From Candidatus Electrothrix aarhusensis (lineage in GTDB: Bacteria > Desulfobacterota > Desulfobulbia > Desulfobulbales > Desulfobulbaceae): 64,000 bases of DNA. The notes beneath the pieces were generated by a model that was not told the origin of the DNA, did no database searches, and saw only the letters and a program-made list of their open reading frames with translations. The translations under genes and the position numbers were made by a program. The stretch lies in the NCBI GenBank assembly GCA_004028505.1, contig MTKO01000046.1, positions 1-64,000 on the forward strand. Direction: 5' to 3'. Shown one piece after another: positions 1 through 10,581 of the stretch; the first letter of the stretch is position 1; every line of letters begins with the position of its first letter.

Positions 1-1094
<1,094 letters not shown>

Positions 1095-2522
1095 TTAAAA
1101 TTCCCCCAGCAGGCGACGAATCGTTTTGATATCATGACTATCAAAAAACTGCAACAACCATATCAGGACAGAACCCGCCATCAAGGCCACCGGAGCGGTA
1201 ATCATCAACGATGCCCAACCAATTTCGATGATTATATAAATTGTAATAACTATAAACACAAACTTCAGCCACCATATATTATTAGGAAGCTTTAATTGTC
1301 GGCTTACTTGGTGCATAGCGATAACCATACATACTACAGTTGCCGCAATCATAGAGGCGACAGCTGCAATGACGGGAGAATCAGCCGCAAAGACCGCCAG
1401 TAGGACAGCATGTATAACCGTCATCCCCACAGTGATGATCATTGCTTTGATCTGACCATTAATCACGTTCAGGCATTGCCCAAGGAAGATTGTCACTGCA
1501 AAAGGCACGAATACCGAACAGAGGTACCGAAACAGTTTAGCTGTTTCGGCATAGTCAGGTCCTAGTACTAGGGAGATACACAAGGGTCCGTAGGCAGCAG
1601 CCATCACCCCCCCCGCTAATGTCAATATGCCTGTCAGTTTCACAGCAGTAATCAGGTCTTCACCCCCTCCGTGATTAAAAGAACGGCTGAGACGGGGCAA
1701 AAATGCTTGGGTAGCGGCAGTGGGGACAATCATCATTGCAGTCATAAATTGCATGGCGAGACCAAAGTGCCCGACAATTGTTCCGTCCGGCTGCAGCCTG
1801 CGCAACAGAACAACTGAAATCTGCGAGAATTGTGCCATAGCGGTAGTGCTGATCAAAAATAACAACGATACCCTCGCGACTTTTTTCAAATAGTCGTGAC
1901 GATACCCCAGAGCTAAAGCCCCTGGATATTCACAGGATAATTTGTGCAGAGAAAAAAATGCTTCAAGTGCCCAAAAAAGAAAATGGAAAAAACAGATAAC
2001 CAGCAGGCCGCCTCCTGCACATAGAGTGGCAACGCCTGCTAACGCTTCTGTTCCACGAAAGAGTATTTCATACTGTGGAATCCAACGGGGGCGTTCAAAA
2101 GCGATATATACGCCACGCACCCAGATCACCATACTCCTACCAATCATGGCTCCCACAAAGCAAAGGACTGTCAAGCGCAGGATGAACTCTGGCTCAGTGA
2201 TCCACACGAACAGGGTCAGCCCTGCCGCAGCAATCAGTGTGGCTGTCAGGGTGATGGTCAGGCTATGATGCAGTATAGGCAGGAGGAGACCTGCATGCTT
2301 GCCAAGACGCTGAGCCAGAAAGATATTTTGCCCAAACAGCCCAATATTTATTACCCCCAAATACAATGCCACGCCGTAAAGATAGACACCGGTTTGCTCA
2401 GGTCCTAACATGCGGGCAAGAACCAGCATATACATGAAGCGGATAAGGCTGCCAGCAAACTGGGATGATGCCAAGGCTGTAATGTTATGAAGGATAGACT
2501 TTTTCTTGTGCTGTGTACTCAT
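1095..2522 (-). CDS. Polysaccharide flippase (Wzx/MurJ-like, MOP superfamily)
   Basis: This 475-residue protein is almost entirely hydrophobic, with about 12-14 predicted membrane segments, the length and layout of the oligosaccharide flippase (Polysacc_synt) branch of the MOP exporter superfamily. The N-terminus (HNITALASSQFAGSLIRF, LARMLGPEQTGVYLYG) matches the usual first helix and loop of Wzx-type lipid-linked oligosaccharide translocases. It is the last gene of a leftward operon containing two glycosyltransferases and a TPR membrane protein, 13 bases after the TPR gene. It probably moves the lipid-linked glycan made by those enzymes across the inner membrane. The substrate cannot be deduced. 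Confidence 0.82.
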   Translation of the reverse strand: MSTQHKKKSILHNITALASSQFAGSLIRFMYMLVLARMLGPEQTGVYLYGVALYLGVINIGLFGQNIFLAQRLGKHAGLLLPILHHSLTITLTATLIAAAGLTLFVWITEPEFILRLTVLCFVGAMIGRSMVIWVRGVYIAFERPRWIPQYEILFRGTEALAGVATLCAGGGLLVICFFHFLFWALEAFFSLHKLSCEYPGALALGYRHDYLKKVARVSLLFLISTTAMAQFSQISVVLLRRLQPDGTIVGHFGLAMQFMTAMMIVPTAATQAFLPRLSRSFNHGGGEDLITAVKLTGILTLAGGVMAAAYGPLCISLVLGPDYAETAKLFRYLCSVFVPFAVTIFLGQCLNVINGQIKAMIITVGMTVIHAVLLAVFAADSPVIAAVASMIAATVVCMVIAMHQVSRQLKLPNNIWWLKFVFIVITIYIIIEIGWASLMITAPVALMAGSVLIWLLQFFDSHDIKTIRRLLGEF

Positions 2523-2535
2523 GTCTTCTCAGCGG

Positions 2536-4539
2536 TCATTTTTCCCTGTATTTCCGTATGTGCCGATCAGCCATTTCTTCATCTCTCAATATTTTGTAAC
2601 ACCTGGAAAGATATAGATGCGTCTCTTTGTAAGAGGGTCTGAGTTCAAGCACTTTGTTAAAGTGCTCCACTGCTCCTGTACATTTTTTCACAACCATGAG
2701 TTCATAACCAAGATTGAAATGTCCTTGGACATGGTCGGGCTTGCGTCTTAAAAAGCGACTATACATATCAATGGCCTCTTCTGACTGTCCGTTTTTCTGC
2801 AAGGCAAAGCCCAACCAGAATTCCGTCATATTATACGCCGGGTTTATCTTTATGATCCGCTCAAAATACGGTATAGCCTCTTGATACCGTCCTGCATCCT
2901 GCAATGCTTTTGCAGCGGAATACTGATATCTGAAAGATCGAGGGTCCAAGTCGGCAGCACGTTTTGCCTCTGATACATACTCCTGCTTTTGGCCAACAGA
3001 TTTGAGACCAACAGATAGCCAATAATGCGACAAGGCCCAGTTTGGATTCAGCCGTACTACATTACGAAGTATCTTCATGCCTTCAGCCGTTTTTTCTTGT
3101 CGCAGGTAAAGCATTCCTAGATTGATATTGGTGTAAATATGATAGGGGCTCTTTTCCAATGCCTTCTTAAAATGATATTCGGAAAGCTCCGGGTCTTTTC
3201 TGGTGACAGCTAATCCGTAATTATTATGGGCAAGGGGGCGGGCACCGTATTTAATGCTTTGTTCCCAAAAACTCTCCTCAGTTTTCCAATGCCTGTTCAT
3301 GAACCAAGAAGAGAGAAAAAAATAAAGCACCATTCCCGTGACGATAGTCAATGCAACGGTTTTCCTTGTCCATAAAAATAGCAGCAACGTGAAGGTCATA
3401 GAGAGAAAAACTAAGGGCATATACTGCCGATAATCAGTGACCACAAATTGGAAAGGAAAAAAAGAAGAAGTCAGAGAAAACAGCAACCAATAAGCAAAAA
3501 TAAAAAAAGTCAACAGTGGCTGCCGTTTATAAAAAAAACAAGCGGCAAGCAAAGTGAACAGGATAAATACCAGCCCGGTCAATGCCGCCGGATTGAAGAC
3601 AGTATCAACCATCTCTACTTCAGCAAGAGCCCGCATTTGAAAAGGCCAGACAAAATTGCGCAGATAATAAAAGAGATGGACCTTGAGCATGGTGAGAGGA
3701 TAGGTTATTCCGCTCAGTGTCCGCAAAGAATCACTTGGATTTTTCTGAACAATCCAAAAAGAGTACAGTAGAAAATAGCCTGCCGTTGGTAAGGAAAAAA
3801 TGACAGTCCGTAGCCACAACCTCCAGTTCAACAACCCCTGCTTGGCCAGCAGCCATTCAAAAAGAAAAACAAGCCCGAAAGCTATGATTGCGGCCTGTTT
3901 CGAGAGAATTGCCAGGCAAATTAGCAGTAATGAGCTTACCCATCCATAAATCGTGTCTCCTTTCATCCGCATATGAAAATAAACCAGCATAGCGGCAAGG
4001 AAGAAAAAAACCATCAGCAGCAGATCACGGGCTGCTATATAGTTGACAGCGGAACCGGAAATAGGATGGACCGCAAAAATTAAAGCGGCCACAAAGGCCT
4101 TATGCCTAAAATGGATGGTTTCCATTTCTGGTCCAGCAGTGCCACCCCATCCGCTTATCAAAATACATGACAAAAAATAAACCAAAATTGTGGAGCAGAT
4201 ATGAATGGCTATATTACCTATATGAAACCCAGCAAGCCTGCCAATCCCGGCAAACTGGGCTATTTCGCTGTTAATGGCATGGGACAGGGGCATCAGCGGT
4301 CTGAATTCAGCAATTTTCGGGTTGGTACTACCGGTTCTGACGTCAGTAAAAAATCGTATTGGTGGCCAAAATTTATCTATTTCTGTATTGTTTTGAACCC
4401 GATACACACTGTCGAGGTGGTAGGTGTTATCAAGCGTATTGGAATAAATAATTGAAGTGATCAGGATCAGCAGAGCGATATATACATAATGTCCAAATTG
4501 ACTTGACCAAATGCGTTGTGAATTTTTTTGTTTATTCAT
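2536..4539 (-). CDS. Multispan membrane protein with C-terminal TPR repeats (TMTC-like)
   Basis: The 667-residue protein has about 10 membrane segments over residues 15-410, then a soluble C-terminal part (about 430-660) made of six or seven tetratricopeptide repeats, for example around NINLGMLYLRQEKTAEGMKI and HFNLGYELMVVKKCTGAVEH. This resembles TMTC-type or ArnT/PMT-like membrane glycosyltransferases fused to TPRs, including the conserved-looking loop PLMPLSHAIN and the segment NYIAARDLLLM. Enzymatic activity is inferred, not shown. It sits between a GT4 gene (85 bases upstream) and the flippase, so it likely handles a lipid-linked sugar or glycosylates exported surface proteins. The TPRs may bind a partner of the secretion machinery. 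Confidence 0.7.
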   Translation of the reverse strand: MNKQKNSQRIWSSQFGHYVYIALLILITSIIYSNTLDNTYHLDSVYRVQNNTEIDKFWPPIRFFTDVRTGSTNPKIAEFRPLMPLSHAINSEIAQFAGIGRLAGFHIGNIAIHICSTILVYFLSCILISGWGGTAGPEMETIHFRHKAFVAALIFAVHPISGSAVNYIAARDLLLMVFFFLAAMLVYFHMRMKGDTIYGWVSSLLLICLAILSKQAAIIAFGLVFLFEWLLAKQGLLNWRLWLRTVIFSLPTAGYFLLYSFWIVQKNPSDSLRTLSGITYPLTMLKVHLFYYLRNFVWPFQMRALAEVEMVDTVFNPAALTGLVFILFTLLAACFFYKRQPLLTFFIFAYWLLFSLTSSFFPFQFVVTDYRQYMPLVFLSMTFTLLLFLWTRKTVALTIVTGMVLYFFLSSWFMNRHWKTEESFWEQSIKYGARPLAHNNYGLAVTRKDPELSEYHFKKALEKSPYHIYTNINLGMLYLRQEKTAEGMKILRNVVRLNPNWALSHYWLSVGLKSVGQKQEYVSEAKRAADLDPRSFRYQYSAAKALQDAGRYQEAIPYFERIIKINPAYNMTEFWLGFALQKNGQSEEAIDMYSRFLRRKPDHVQGHFNLGYELMVVKKCTGAVEHFNKVLELRPSYKETHLYLSRCYKILRDEEMADRHIRKYREK

Positions 4540-4624
4540 AATAAAATATGGATCATGTTGGGTTTTGGGATCTTATTTGACAAGTAAATGCAGCAAGGAA
4601 TGAAGTAAAGAATTTATTTTTAAC

Positions 4625-5860
4625 CTATCTGTCTGTAGATACTGTCTTTTTTTCGATTTGTTTTTCAAATAAACGGGAAAAGCGGGTTGCGCATATCTTT
4701 CGGGTAAATTTATTACTGACTTTTCGTGCCTGGGTGACGAGTAAGTTTTTTAGATTTTTGTCTTGTACCAGTCGGATAACGCTCTCAGCAATTGATGATG
4801 GAGAATTTTCTGGGATCAGCAGACCGGTCTTTTCATGAATGACCGTATCTTTTATTCCACCAATAGAGGACGCAATGACCGGTATTCCGGCAAACATGGC
4901 TTCAAGAAAAGAGAGCCCTTGGGCCTCATGACGTCCATCGTAAGATTGTTTCGAGGGGCCGACGAAAATGTCAGCAGCAGCCAAATAAGTCGGTATATCA
5001 TGCTGTTCAACCCATCCGATAAAGAAAATCCTGTCGGAAATACCTAGCTGTTGCACTGATTTTTTTAGTGCTTCCTCATTTTGTCCTGTTCCTAAAATCA
5101 ATGCCGTTGTATCCGGTAATGTTTTACAAAGCAAAGCAACGGCAGCAAGAAGATCATCCGCGCCTTTTTCCTCCACCAGTCTGCCGACAAAGATCAGAAG
5201 CGGTCCCGCTCCTTTTTTGTATGCTGCCCGTAGTTCACAGGATCGTTGTTGATCAGGCTCATTTGTCGATATCCCCATAGGGATCAATTCTAATTCAGGC
5301 ATGGTCGGTGCAATGGTCCGTACCTGTTGTTCAGTTGCAGAGCTATTCACTGTTACGGAATCAGCATGACAGAGGGCACAACGTTTGAATGTCTTCAACA
5401 TTTTTCCTCTGAGCGCAAAAGCATCGCTGCCATGTACTGTAAGCACATGGGGAAGACACAAGGCTTTGGCGGCCAGTATTGAGGTAAAGCCTTGGGGGAG
5501 TATCCAATGTGAATGAACAAGATCGTAATCTCCCTGGGAAAGGTGTTTGAATACCGCTGCTGCTTCAAAAAAAACTAATGCCGGTAATTTGAGATAATTG
5601 CTTGGGTTTTGTTTTAGATTAATCAACGCACCACCCTGATAACAGACAGTCTGTAGTCGATTTGGCCAGATATATCGGAAACGCGACACCTTAACACCGT
5701 TGATCTGTTCATGTCTGGCTGCCATCGGGGCGTGGGGTGCCAGTACATCAACCTGCCAGCCCAAGGACTGAAGATCCTGAGCGAGGTGGAGGATAAAGGG
5801 TGTTGTGCTGTCTCCAGCCCAGCGTGGGAAATTTGAAGTAACACAAAGAATTTTCTTCAT
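4625..5860 (-). CDS. Glycosyltransferase family 4 (GT-B fold)
   Basis: A 411-residue GT-B glycosyltransferase. The N-terminal half begins KILCVTSNFPRWAGDSTTPF, the usual first strand with a glycine-rich acceptor loop. The C-terminal half has LLIFVGRLVEEKGADDLL, the nucleotide-binding start of Glycos_transf_1 (about residues 222-239), and the donor-site motif EAQGLSFLEAMFAGIPVIAS with its EX7E-like glutamates (about 313-332). It should transfer a sugar from a nucleotide donor to a lipid-linked or growing glycan on the cytoplasmic side. Its ATG overlaps the last four bases of the upstream GT2 gene (ATGA overlap at 5857-5860), so the two are almost certainly translationally coupled. Confidence 0.88.
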   Translation of the reverse strand: MKKILCVTSNFPRWAGDSTTPFILHLAQDLQSLGWQVDVLAPHAPMAARHEQINGVKVSRFRYIWPNRLQTVCYQGGALINLKQNPSNYLKLPALVFFEAAAVFKHLSQGDYDLVHSHWILPQGFTSILAAKALCLPHVLTVHGSDAFALRGKMLKTFKRCALCHADSVTVNSSATEQQVRTIAPTMPELELIPMGISTNEPDQQRSCELRAAYKKGAGPLLIFVGRLVEEKGADDLLAAVALLCKTLPDTTALILGTGQNEEALKKSVQQLGISDRIFFIGWVEQHDIPTYLAAADIFVGPSKQSYDGRHEAQGLSFLEAMFAGIPVIASSIGGIKDTVIHEKTGLLIPENSPSSIAESVIRLVQDKNLKNLLVTQARKVSNKFTRKICATRFSRLFEKQIEKKTVSTDR

Positions 5861-6834
5861 GACTCTTTACTTTGCTCCTTTGTCTCTTCTCTTAGTTGTC
5901 TTAATTCAATTTTACGTATTTTTTCAACTGTCATCTCAATCAGTTGCCTGTTGAAAGAAATTAGGTCAGCTAGCAGGCCGATCATTAAGGTAAGAAAGCC
6001 CAAGTTCATCAACACGCCGCCAATAATCAAAGATTGAATATGTCCCTGACCGTCTCCTGAAAAATAATACCAAAAGAATCTGATAATAGGGAGTATGCCA
6101 AGGATAAATATCAGCAGGCCGATGGTGGCAAAGACGCGCAAAGGTTCAAACATAGAATACATGCGCAGCATACTGCTCAATTGTCGACCGATAAAAGTAG
6201 GAATGTTGGTAAATAGTCGTGATTCACGGGTGCTCGGATTAGTGCTGACAGGTACATGCGTTATGGCAATTTTTTTTTTGCCTGCTTGAATTAACATTTC
6301 AATAGTGTAGCTATAGGGAGATATAATATTCATCCTCAGAGCGGCATCACGGGAAAGAGCGCGAAAACCGCTGACAGCGTCAGGAACCTGCGTTCCTGAG
6401 AGTTGTCTGGCCACCTTGCTTCCTAATTTTTGTAGTGCTTTTTTGACGGGAGAAAAATGTTCAATTTCACTGGTTCTCCGATCACCAATAACGATATCCG
6501 CCTTACCTGCAATGATAGGCTGTACCAGTTGCGCTATATCCTGCCCAGCATACTGATTATCTCCATCTGTGTTTACAATAATATCCGCCCCGTGGGCCAA
6601 GCAGGCATCCAGTCCTTTACGGAATGACCGGGCAAGTCCCAGCGTCCCTATATTACGAACGATATGATCGACTTTGAGCTCTTGGGCAACCTCAACGGTT
6701 CGGTCTGTACTGCCGTCATCAATGATTAATATTTCTATCTTGTCGATACCGTGGACTGATTTTGGTAAGTCCGCAATGGTCATCGGCAAGGTCTGCTCTT
6801 CATTCAAGCACGGGATTTGGATAATAAGCTTCAT
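5857..6834 (-). CDS. Glycosyltransferase family 2, polyprenyl-phosphate type
   Basis: The 325-residue protein has a GT-A domain over residues 1-220. Visible motifs are IPCLNEEQTLP, IIDDGSTDRT (about 38-47) and the metal/nucleotide motif NTDGDNQY (about 88-95), followed by VSGFRALSRDAAL. Two C-terminal membrane helices (about 235-260 and 275-300) place it with the dolichyl/undecaprenyl-phosphate sugar synthases. It probably loads a sugar onto undecaprenyl phosphate as donor for the following enzymes. It is the first gene of the leftward glycan operon and ends in a four-base overlap with the GT4 gene. The 280 bases upstream hold no gene. Confidence 0.88.
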   Translation of the reverse strand: MKLIIQIPCLNEEQTLPMTIADLPKSVHGIDKIEILIIDDGSTDRTVEVAQELKVDHIVRNIGTLGLARSFRKGLDACLAHGADIIVNTDGDNQYAGQDIAQLVQPIIAGKADIVIGDRRTSEIEHFSPVKKALQKLGSKVARQLSGTQVPDAVSGFRALSRDAALRMNIISPYSYTIEMLIQAGKKKIAITHVPVSTNPSTRESRLFTNIPTFIGRQLSSMLRMYSMFEPLRVFATIGLLIFILGILPIIRFFWYYFSGDGQGHIQSLIIGGVLMNLGFLTLMIGLLADLISFNRQLIEMTVEKIRKIELRQLREETKEQSKES

Positions 6835-7061
6835 AGTGACGAATCAAGTGATCTTGGTGCGTATGGATGGGAAACTTACTGCCTATCGGAATAGGACACG
6901 TCTGTATCCTGTATAACTTTTTGATTTTATATTATTTATATGGGATAAAAAGGTCGGTCCATGGTGGTGTCAAGTATGATATCAAAGGATTTTTCATTTT
7001 AAGCAAAGATAGCCTTGTCCTTTTATCTTTTTAATATAAAAGAAAAAATGATCTGGAAAAT

Positions 7062-7089
7062 AAAAAAGGCAGGCCCTTTCGAGCCTGCC
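7062..7089 (-). terminator. Rho-independent terminator of the collagen-like gene
   Basis: A 7-bp stem GGCAGGC/GCCTGCC with an eight-base loop (7068-7074 with 7083-7089) is followed on the minus strand by six T's (7062-7067). It starts 24 bases after the stop of the collagen-like gene. Confidence 0.85.
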
Positions 7090-7112
7090 CTTCTTCTCAA
7101 GTGATATGAGGG

Positions 7113-8513
7113 TTATTGGTTTTTCTTGAAATAGTGACTTAGTCCATTCCACCAGTTATTGGTTTTTTGAGCGGAAGACGGAGCATTATCGCATGTTGGT
7201 TTAGAAGGAGAGGCTGGAATCTCAGTACATATTGGCTCGCAATGAGCGATGTCTATACCTATCATAACCGTTCCTGTTTCACAAACGGGTATGGATTCAC
7301 ATCCTCCAATACCAACCGGTCCTTGATCCCCAGTTGCGCCTTTGTCACCAGTCGGTCCTTGATCACCGCTCGCACCCGTAGCGCCATCTACGCCTGGATT
7401 ACCAGTCGGTCCTTGCTCGCCGGTTGCACCCTTGTCGCCAGTCGGTCCAGCAGCACCGTCTACACCTGGATTACCATTTGGTCCAGCTATTCCTTGTGGT
7501 CCTTGCTCGCCGGTAGCGCCTTTGTCTCCAGTCGGTCCAGTGATTCCTTGTGGTCCTTGATCCCCAGTCGCACCATCAGCGCCCGTGGCACCAGTGTCGC
7601 CAGTTGGTCCGGTCGGTCCTTGATCACCGGTTGCACCCTTGTCGCCCGTGGCACCATCTTCGCCTGTAGCACCAGTTGCACCCGTTACTCCCTGATCGCC
7701 AGTAGCACCTTTGTCTCCAGTCGGTCCAGTTAGTCCCTGATCGCCAGTGGCACCTTTGTCTCCGTTTAGCCCCGTTATTCCTTGCGATCCCTGATCGCCG
7801 GTTGGGCCTTTGTCTCCGTTCGGTCCAGTGATTCCTTGTGGTCCTTGATCGCCAGTTGGGCCTTTGTCTCCAGTCGGTCCCGTTATTCCTTGCGGTCCTT
7901 GGTCGCCGGTCGGACCTTGGTCTCCAGTCGGTCCTTTGTCACCGATTGTAGTGTTAGGGGGATCATCTATGGGGCCTATCTCGCTGTTGCATACCGTTGC
8001 ATGGACAACAAGATTCAAGTCTTCCATTTGGGCATCTTCGTTAAGAAGAATTTCATAAAGCCCGCCACTGAGAGCCGTAATATTGCCTTCTGTAAATTTT
8101 TTGTATTGACCAGGTGCTGAAGTGGGGAGATCATCTCTACCTGCATACAGGTGAGTTTCACTCATGTAAAACCCTTCCAGTATATTAAATGAAAGAGCAA
8201 TCCTGTCATTTAAATATTTAACTTCAAGGGTGCCCACATAAGTGCCTTTACTGATATCATTCTGTCCTGCTCCAGCGTAAATAGGAACTGTAAATTCATC
8301 CCCGGTATACAGGCGAAGCTGCCATCCCCAGCGATTCGCTTCAATGCCAGACAGGGTGTTTAGTTCACTGTCACCAACATCAAGGACATCATCATTATTA
8401 CGATCGCCAAAGGCGAAGGCCGTCTCACAACTTATGTCTTGGGCTTGAACCACTGGTGCTGTAAGCATCAGTGATGCCAGACATAATGCTGTAAGCATAC
8501 TTGGTTTATTCAT
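7113..8513 (-). CDS. Secreted collagen-like protein (71 Gly-X-Y triplets)
   Basis: The 466-residue protein opens with a Sec signal peptide ([23 protein letters not shown]). A globular N-terminal domain (about 27-190) starts with the possible EF-hand/dockerin-like loop [12 protein letters not shown]. Residues 191-403 are 71 consecutive Gly-X-Y triplets, mostly GPT, GAT, GDK and GDQ, without interruption. The last about 60 residues contain a cysteine-rich patch ([12 protein letters not shown]) and end in a charged tail. This is the bacterial collagen-like trimer design seen in BclA and Scl proteins; threonine-rich triplets are often glycosylated. It has a good Shine-Dalgarno (AGGAGGAG) before ATG 8513 and is preceded by a GEMM-I riboswitch, so surface deployment is probably set by a cyclic dinucleotide. 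Trimerisation and role in adhesion are inferred. Confidence 0.88.
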
Positions 8514-8578
8514 CTGCTCCTCCTATTGAAATAAACAATTGTCCCGGAAAAAACGGTCAGGTTATGGGGGAAATGCAC

Positions 8579-8624
8579 AAAAAAAAGGCCGGGTTACCTC
8601 TTTTAATTTACAAGGTAACCGGCC
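8579..8624 (-). terminator. Riboswitch expression platform: intrinsic terminator
   Basis: On the minus strand the arm GCCGGTTACCT pairs with AGGTAACCCGGC (one bulged C), followed by eight T's (8579-8586). The 5' arm of this terminator (8614-8624) is also the 3' edge of the riboswitch aptamer, so aptamer folding and terminator folding compete. That arrangement predicts ligand-induced read-through (an ON switch) into the collagen-like gene, whose start is about 65 bases further on. Confidence 0.82.
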
Positions 8625-8690
8625 ATCTCTATGAGACCCGTAGGCTTTCCGTCCCTGCCTCGCAACAGGTTTGGCTTTATCTTTATACTA
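8612..8690 (-). promoter_or_regulatory. GEMM-I cyclic di-GMP (or cGAMP) riboswitch aptamer
   Basis: Read on the minus strand, the conserved blocks of the GEMM-I class appear in order: GCCAAACC (8668-8675), a P2 helix CCTGTT/GGCAGG capped by the GNRA loop GCGA, then GGGACGGAAAGCC (8643-8655), a P3 arm around GGTCTC...GAGAT, and GGCCGGTTACC (8614-8624). The GNRA loop and the A-rich receptor strand are the hallmark tertiary contact of this class. It lies in the leader of the collagen-like gene and overlaps an intrinsic terminator. Deltaproteobacterial GEMM-I RNAs include a subgroup that prefers 3',3'-cGAMP; I cannot assign the ligand by eye. Confidence 0.88.
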
Positions 8691-9010
8691 TCTTAAAAAT
8701 CAATGGTCACCCTGTTGGGATGTTATCGCCCGATAACGACCGTTGTAAACAGTTCTTTTAGCCTTCATACTCTAGGCAGGCGGAATTCAGACAGAAGTCA
8801 CCAAGCTTTGCAAGCTCAGCCATCGTTCCTTTCTCTTAGCAGCATTATTCTCATATACTGAAAAAAAAGCAGTGCAGCAAACAACACTGAATAGGGAACT
8901 ATCGACTATCTTATCGAATTAAAATTCAAAAGAGCCAATTTTTAACACTCTTGTATAAATAATTACACATGGTGGGTGTGAAATGCAATAAAAAAGGGAG
9001 GGGTTGTTTA

Positions 9011-9079
9011 AAAAAATAATGTAAAAAAAGGAGGATGCAAGAATCTTACCAGTAAGACCCTTGCATTCCATTATTTTTT
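9011..9079. repeat. Long imperfect hairpin in intergenic region
   Basis: An exact 11-bp inverted repeat (9011-9021 AAAAAATAATG with 9069-9079) encloses a second 7-bp pair (ATGCAAG 9035-9041 with 9060-9066) and a small inner hairpin TCTTA/TAAGA. The outer arms end in A- and T-tracts on both strands, so it could act as a bidirectional terminator between the glycosyltransferase gene (ends 9169, leftward) and the collagen leader, or be a small palindromic element. The rest of 8700-9168 shows no gene; the promoter of the collagen transcript should lie there. Confidence 0.55.
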
Positions 9080-9168
9080 AAAGCAACGGATGGCTTTGTA
9101 GTTAACTTATTGTTTTTAGATAAATAAGGAGAAGTCGCATTCTACCTTCAAAGTTCGCTTCCCTCAGG

Positions 9169-9873
9169 TTATTTCCTTTTTGCGTAGTAGAAACGTGCCA
9201 GCTGTTGTGGAGGGATACCCACAGCCCGACCAAGGAGCATCAGCTGATTGACCAAGGTCGTTTTTATCAGACCGTGTTGCTGCCAGCGTCTGGCTGAGGT
9301 CGTAACATGGGATTGGGTAATGGAGATCCTGCCCAGCTTTTTAAGACGATGTATCAGGCCCACATCTTCCATGATAGGTTGTTGTGGAAATCCTTTGGCC
9401 ACAAAATAAGTTTCTCGGCGCATAAATAGGGCCTGATCGCCATAGGGGAGGCTGAATATTTTTGAGCGGACCTGGATTCCGGCTTCTATGAGGCGAAATC
9501 CTAACCCTTTCCCGTTAATTTTTAATCTAAAGGCTCCGGCAGCAACGTTTTCTTTTTGAAGGACTGAACAGATATCCTCGGGAAAAGTCCCCGGCAAGAC
9601 AGTATCACAATGCAGAAAAAGGAGAATCTCACCGCCTGCTGCCTCGGCTCCGCAATGCTGTTGTTGGCCGCGACCGGGCTTAGAATGGATCAGCTTGACT
9701 CCTCTTGTGAGGACCTCTTGAACAGTTTGATCTGTACTGCCGCCATCAATAACTATGATTTCCGGCAGCCCGTCAAGCAGGTCATATCGACTTGTTTGCG
9801 GCAGAAGGCGATCAAGACAATCCCTGATATGCTGCTCTTCATTCAGGGTCGGTATAATAATTGAGATGGACAA
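9169..9873 (-). CDS. Glycosyltransferase, TIGR04283 arsenosugar type (GT2)
   Basis: This GT-A family 2 protein has SIIIPTLNEEQHIRDCLDRL, EIIVIDGGSTDQT, GRGQQQHCGAEAAGGEILLF and FLHCDTVLP, then GAFRLKI and PYGDQALFMRR. These features identify the family named TIGR04283, often found in arsenosugar loci. I place the start at the TTG at 9873, because the ATG at 9918 would overlap the upstream gene by 80 bases and precede the conserved first strand with extra residues. The product is then 235 residues. The two genes overlap by about 35 bases and are probably coupled. No arsS-like radical SAM gene is in the window, so the arsenosugar role is inference from family names. Confidence 0.78.
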   Translation of the reverse strand: MSISIIIPTLNEEQHIRDCLDRLLPQTSRYDLLDGLPEIIVIDGGSTDQTVQEVLTRGVKLIHSKPGRGQQQHCGAEAAGGEILLFLHCDTVLPGTFPEDICSVLQKENVAAGAFRLKINGKGLGFRLIEAGIQVRSKIFSLPYGDQALFMRRETYFVAKGFPQQPIMEDVGLIHRLKKLGRISITQSHVTTSARRWQQHGLIKTTLVNQLMLLGRAVGIPPQQLARFYYAKRK

Positions 9874-10534
9874 GGTCTTCTGGACGGTCAATATCGTGCA
9901 GTTGAGGAAGTAGGGCAACGGAAAGGTTGTTTTTATGGGCCTGGGTAAGTGTTTGTGCTAATACTTGATCAGTGCCCCAGTCAATATTCTGAAAGAGGTC
10001 AGCATAATTTCGCTTCTCTTTTTTGAGGCGGGCAGGGAGGCCGATCAGGTAATATCCACCATCGGTCGCCGGACCGAGAACCAGGTCGTGCTGCTGAAGA
10101 TATTCTAAACCACTTGTGATGATGGCCGAATTTATACCAGGGCAGTCAGAACCAATAAGGAGAACCTTTTCTGCTCCCTGCTGCCATGTTTGCTCAAAGG
10201 CATCTTGCATTCGCTCTCCCAGGCCATTACCCTGTTGTCGAGCCAGCTGAATATCTTTACTGTTCTTGCCCAGCCAGGTTTTTATTTCCTGCTGTGAACC
10301 ACCGCAGTAGTATACCTGCAATTGAATAGAGCCTGTCATTAGTGCCGGTTGAACTTGATTGATAACCTGTTTGGTCATTCGACTATGGAGATCAGCTGCT
10401 CCTTGCGGGCCGAGGTGGTTTATCAATCGAGTTTTTACTTTTCCTGCTTGCGGATAGCGGGTAAAAAGGACGATGACTGACTGCCGGGTTAGGCTTTGAT
10501 TGTCGTTCAACATAAAGTCGTTGATTCTTGGCAC
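9839..10534 (-). CDS. Glycosyltransferase, TIGR04282 arsenosugar type (DUF2064)
   Basis: A 231-residue nucleotidyl/glycosyl-transferase-like protein. It has VIVLFTRYPQAGKVKTRL (about 19-36), the cofC/GlmU-like nucleotide binding start, then KVLLIGSDCPGINSAII and LVLGPATDGGYYLIGL, the signature of DUF2064/TIGR04282. It precedes and overlaps the TIGR04283 gene, the pairing usually seen in arsenosugar or related glycolipid clusters. An alternative ATG at 10513 (MLNDNQSL) would shorten it by seven residues. The usual third partner is absent here. Confidence 0.82.
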   Translation of the reverse strand: MPRINDFMLNDNQSLTRQSVIVLFTRYPQAGKVKTRLINHLGPQGAADLHSRMTKQVINQVQPALMTGSIQLQVYYCGGSQQEIKTWLGKNSKDIQLARQQGNGLGERMQDAFEQTWQQGAEKVLLIGSDCPGINSAIITSGLEYLQQHDLVLGPATDGGYYLIGLPARLKKEKRNYADLFQNIDWGTDQVLAQTLTQAHKNNLSVALLPQLHDIDRPEDLVHLNYYTDPE

Positions 10535-10581
10535 AGCCCCGGAGGGGCGAACGAAAAGAGCCCACCGTTTTAACGGTGGGT
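10530..10581. repeat. REP-like double hairpin
   Basis: Two adjacent palindromes lie between divergent genes: GCCCCGGAGGGGC (about 10536-10548) and CCCACCGTT-TT-AACGGTGGG (10561-10580, 9-bp arms). There is no T-tract, so this is not a clear terminator. G/C-rich palindromes of similar style recur at about 13684, 40950-41090 and 47814, suggesting a REP-like family or scattered small palindromes. Confidence 0.5.

Follow-up and report, generated by a model that had tools for sequence, protein, structure and literature searches.

The window, i.e. the whole stretch of 64,000 nucleotides analysed, comes from Candidatus Electrothrix aarhusensis. Its minus strand carries a GEMM-I (c-di-GMP class I) aptamer (8610-8684), an intrinsic terminator (8579-8624) and a gene coding for a secreted collagen-like protein of 466 amino acids (7113-8513). 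The distance between the end of the U-tract of the terminator and the ATG at 8513 is 65 nt, and the Shine-Dalgarno sequence AGGAGGAG is found at 8517-8524. From the sequence and the hairpin listing, another terminator on the same strand (GGCAGGC...GCCTGCC followed by T6, 7062-7089) was identified after the collagen gene, which is thus a single-gene unit. The polysaccharide genes located further on (GT2, GT4, TPR, flippase) were considered as additional targets of the same switch and rejected, since this terminator closes the collagen unit. On the upstream side, a possible minus-strand promoter TTTACA-18-TAACAT was noted at 8720-8749 (9 of 12 matches); such sites are no commoner in the window than in shuffled sequence, so that the evidence for it is weak and no convincing promoter was recognized. 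Elsewhere on the minus strand, an Acido-Lenti-1 RNA was detected at 10535-10580 (45.9 bits for a gathering score of 37) and a fragment of an IS110-like transposase was recognized by eye at the start of the window.

The aptamer was identified by covariance models. With cmscan, the model RF03167 (c-di-GMP-I-GGC) displays 59.7 bits at 8684-8610 (E-value 1.4e-11 over the window), barely above its gathering score of 59, and the model RF01051 (c-di-GMP-I, clan CL00126) displays 55.4 bits at 8685-8611, 20 bits above its gathering score of 35. These scores bear out the original prediction of a GEMM-I aptamer on the minus strand, for which a search with RF01051 had been proposed; the match to this family is real, but the best model is that of the GGC sister family. 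The P2 hairpin CCUGUU-GCGA-GGCAGG (8654-8669) is seen in the sequence, in the cmscan alignment and in the fold, and includes the expected GNRA tetraloop GCGA at 8663-8660. The internal loop is of the canonical AAA/GAC type, with the 5' half AAA at 8670-8672 and the 3' half GAC at 8651-8653. The P1 stem is short and rich in A-U pairs; folded on its own, the aptamer reaches a thermodynamic stability no greater than that of shuffled sequences (z of 0.02). The residues of the ligand pocket are G20 (8675), A47 (8648) and C92 (8615), where the numbers were placed on the window RNA by alignment of the conserved blocks with what we take to be the Vc2 sequence.

In the terminator, the strand GGCCGGUUACC (8624-8614) pairs with GGUAACCCGGCC, which is followed by a U8 tract (8586-8579). 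The folding energy is -20.7 kcal/mol for a mean of -9.1 in shuffled sequences (z of -4.2), and none of 200 shuffles was as good. Its 5' arm (8614-8624) corresponds to the 3' side of P3, J1/3 and the 3' strand of P1, as had been anticipated when the 3' edge of the aptamer was proposed to serve as terminator arm, and it contains both C92 and C93. The ligand-bound aptamer and the terminator are therefore expected to be mutually exclusive, an anatomy that points to an ON switch. At low c-di-GMP, the aptamer 3' strand GGCCGGUUACC, with the ligand-pairing C92, would pair with GGUAACCCGGCC and transcription would stop at the U-tract 8586-8579. Once c-di-GMP is bound, the junction and P1 would be held together, the 3' strand would not be free and the terminator would not form; the RNA polymerase would then continue into the collagen gene and stop at the terminator of this gene. 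The class, the mutual exclusion, the ON direction and the collagen target, all part of the original prediction, are supported by the covariance models, the folding and the relatives; ligand binding and control of termination are inferred. We consider it very likely that the window contains a c-di-GMP class-I riboswitch acting as a transcriptional ON switch for a single secreted collagen-like protein in a cable bacterium.

The unit formed by aptamer and terminator is conserved in the order. By DNA similarity, it was found in 102 of 258 genomes, and many matches span both elements. A terminator in the same register is present in 26 of the 38 distinct AAA/GAC copies of the relatives and in only one of the 89 ACA/GUC copies, and the bases of the terminator pairs vary in the relatives with preservation of the pairing. 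Three tandem canonical GEMM-I switches, each with its own terminator stem and T-run, were noted (L050, 1239-1720; L048/L111); in L050 they precede a type VI secretion Hcp gene (Pfam T6SS_HCP) and then a VgrG-like frame, and the same triple array is present in genome G004.

The protein encoded behind the switch begins with a sequence resembling a signal peptide, judged by eye, followed by an N-terminal domain, the Gly-X-Y stretch and a short C-terminal part. The Gly-X-Y region covers residues 191-406 (about 7296-7943) with 71-72 consecutive triplets, and the Pfam model Collagen (PF01391) gives 117 bits for a cut-off of 27.2, features of an exported bacterial collagen-like protein. The secreted protein with 71 triplets about 65 bases downstream, as originally described, is thus recovered. 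The N-terminal domain (7974-8438, minus strand; ETAFA.G...RWGWQ...) has no Pfam match and its predicted structure is all-beta (mean pLDDT of 74); neither a PDB hit with E < 0.001 nor an informative sequence match was obtained for it. This unnamed domain (window and L058-L069) occurs in exported proteins of cable bacteria, often behind a GEMM-I or fused to collagen repeats. As a query against the genome contigs, the N-terminal part recovered no relative; the whole-genome search of 57 genomes did, only in the genus Electrothrix and in the Electronema-like group g10. Some of these relatives carry a fusion to collagen repeats (L058, L060, L061 and L064) and others do not; four of the latter lie behind a GEMM-I (L059, L063, L065 and L067).

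Among the collagen-fused relatives examined (in G016, over about 300 nt upstream), none is located behind a GEMM-I. A conserved link between riboswitch and collagen was looked for and not found, the pairing being absent at the other collagen loci examined. Within the stretch fetched for each copy (up to 1.5 kb), a collagen gene follows only one of 136 GEMM-I copies, that of the window, which agrees with the view that a collagen is an unusual output for this class. In titles and abstracts of our incomplete literature library, no pair of a riboswitch and a collagen-like protein was reported, and no paper of the same library names both Electrothrix and a riboswitch.

The position of the unit is particular to this species. 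The flanking gene at 9169-9918, coding for a glycosyltransferase, and the sequence beyond show conserved synteny with each of the seven sister genomes. The similarity stops in all seven at the stop codon of this gene (window 9168), and the region 1-9168 is not found at that site in them, so that the riboswitch and the collagen gene represent here a species-specific acquisition or rearrangement. A contamination of the contig is unlikely, since a response regulator encoded in the window shows 89-96% identity to its counterparts in the seven sister genomes.

Concerning the ligand, G20, A47 and C92 are the pocket positions described for Vc2-type c-di-GMP switches (PMC9049102; PMC11218506), and G20 is conserved in 133 of 136 distinct GEMM-I copies from the window genome and related genomes. 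These residues predict c-di-GMP rather than cGAMP, which would go with A20, or the ligand of the GGC variant, and c-di-GMP is thus the expected ligand. The original prediction had kept c-di-GMP and 3',3'-cGAMP side by side, the latter for a subgroup of Geobacter relatives; the pocket points to the first, the cGAMP subgroup having A at position 20. The host is a cable bacterium of the Desulfobulbaceae and not a Geobacter. Alternatively, the physiological ligand of the same ON switch could be 3',3'-cGAMP, which a GGDEF enzyme of the Hypr type would supply as it does in Geobacter. One of the nine GGDEF proteins of the genome (L178) has Thr in place of Asp at the guanine-reading specificity position and keeps the GGDEF motif, a combination linked to Hypr enzymes (PMC6456294) that makes it a candidate cGAMP-making enzyme. 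However, cGAMP binding goes with the change G20A (PMC6274999) whereas position 8675 is a G, as in nearly all the related copies counted above, and at least five other GGDEF domains of the genome carry the canonical Asp; we regard this alternative as unlikely.

Somewhat less likely still is a decayed copy at the synteny breakpoint, with constant termination or none. The species-specific location, the short P1 and the weak promoter evidence are consistent with decay, but the pocket bases are all retained, as are P2 and its tetraloop, the terminator is intact, and the gene has kept its frame, its Shine-Dalgarno sequence and, by eye, its signal peptide. That the RNA belongs to the GGC variant family and prefers another ligand is very improbable: RF03167 gives the top score, but the window RNA has the canonical A47 (CGGAAA) where the printed consensus of this model has a G (CGCGAA), a difference by which the slightly higher score leaves the ligand undecided, and RF01051 is passed by its 20 bits.

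The predicted c-di-GMP switch of the window is one of at least 27 GEMM-I copies recognized among the scored candidates of its genome; the congeners have 9 to 21 copies each and other members of the family 0 to 9. Copies from relatives (L043, L047, L053, L054, L059, L063 and L067) were noted alongside the set of the genome itself. Among the 26 other copies of the genome (L001-L008 and L010-L027), the internal loop is ACA/GUC in 24, AAA/GUC in one (L016) and ACA/GCC in one (L019), and no overlapping terminator was found except possibly at L027, where a terminator-like fold lies in a different register. Its canonical AAA/GAC loop, the only one in the genome, and its overlapping terminator set the window copy apart from all others of its genome and match what is usual in the order. 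Over the 136 copies, the loops are distributed among ACA/GUC (89), AAA/GAC (38), AAA/GGC (4), ACA/GCC (4) and AAA/GUC (1). A24 is accompanied by a purine at position 43 and C24 by a pyrimidine, with L016 as the sole exception, and the combination ACA/GAC was found in none of the 136. The ACA/GCC loop of L034, from another family, looks independent.

An upstream hairpin able to pair with the 5' strand of P1 was observed in 62 of the 93 ACA-type copies of all genomes, and a ribosome-binding site lies within 60 nt in most ACA-type copies. Masking of the Shine-Dalgarno sequence by the aptamer 3' strand is unsupported in these copies (mean longest pairing of 3.60, for 3.55 in control 8-mers). At several ACA-type loci (e.g. 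L002, L008, L010, L012, L013, L025), the ribosome-binding site and an ATG open short frames similar to each other (for example MRTLFHSS..FS and MRSAKK.....ISY); some 60 nt further on, the sequence is again conserved. The variant-core pattern was found only in Candidatus Electrothrix (marina and gigas), in Candidatus Electronema and in two MAGs of the Desulfobulbaceae, and no copy of it was found in viral contigs. We propose, giving this reading even chances, that cable bacteria have a large c-di-GMP regulon (9-27 copies per genome in the genus) made mostly of exported proteins, in which the loop underwent a coordinated change (from A24/A43 to C24/U43) with loss of the overlapping terminator. 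The result would be a GEMM-I subtype particular to this lineage, with translation as its probable level of control. The window would hold the only old-type transcriptional copy of its genome, which would share a species-specific island with its gene and tie an outer collagen-like layer to c-di-GMP.

The window adds a new member to an established riboswitch class; the sensor is ordinary, its target gene and host are unusual, and the regulon of the host is the more surprising part. To our knowledge, cable bacteria have so far neither been obtained in pure culture nor genetically altered. A readable c-di-GMP regulon would reveal which exported components are turned on jointly in them, and the control of a collagen-like protein by c-di-GMP suggests a surface, sheath, matrix or attachment material produced when needed. 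The switch itself is open to in vitro study without culture of the cable bacterium.

Compared with known systems, the aptamer shares with the Vc2-type c-di-GMP-I riboswitches (RF01051) the common fold, the P2 GNRA tetraloop, the AAA/GAC internal loop and the G20/A47/C92 pocket, and differs by the pair C21-G46 in place of G21-C46 and by its collagen-like target. The other 26 copies of the genome (e.g. L001, L003) have the same fold and the same three pocket bases, and one of them precedes a paralogue of the N-terminal domain of the window protein (L003/L065); they differ by their usual ACA/GUC loop, the upstream hairpin and the ribosome-binding site close behind. The protein resembles the Scl/BclA-type proteins (PF01391) by its long uninterrupted Gly-X-Y region with many GPT and GAT triplets, but it is below the cut-offs of the NCBIfam Scl and Lcl models, has a different, unnamed N-terminal domain and lacks an LPXTG anchor. 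In the pilM riboswitch of Geobacter metallireducens, which was shown to turn expression on (PMC9262584), the topology is exclusive in the same way: a terminator strand sequesters the ligand-pairing base and the bound state prevents termination, as we infer for the window. The targets differ, and pilM senses cGAMP whereas G20 predicts c-di-GMP here. Finally, surface proteins are already among the known targets of c-di-GMP-I switches: Bc2 of Bacillus thuringiensis is a c-di-GMP-I ON switch upstream of cap, which encodes a collagen-binding surface adhesin (PMC4933901), and the predicted arrangement of the window likewise places such a switch ahead of a putative surface protein. Cap is a Cna-like, LPXTG-anchored protein that binds collagen, whereas the protein of the window is itself collagen-like and belongs to a Gram-negative host.
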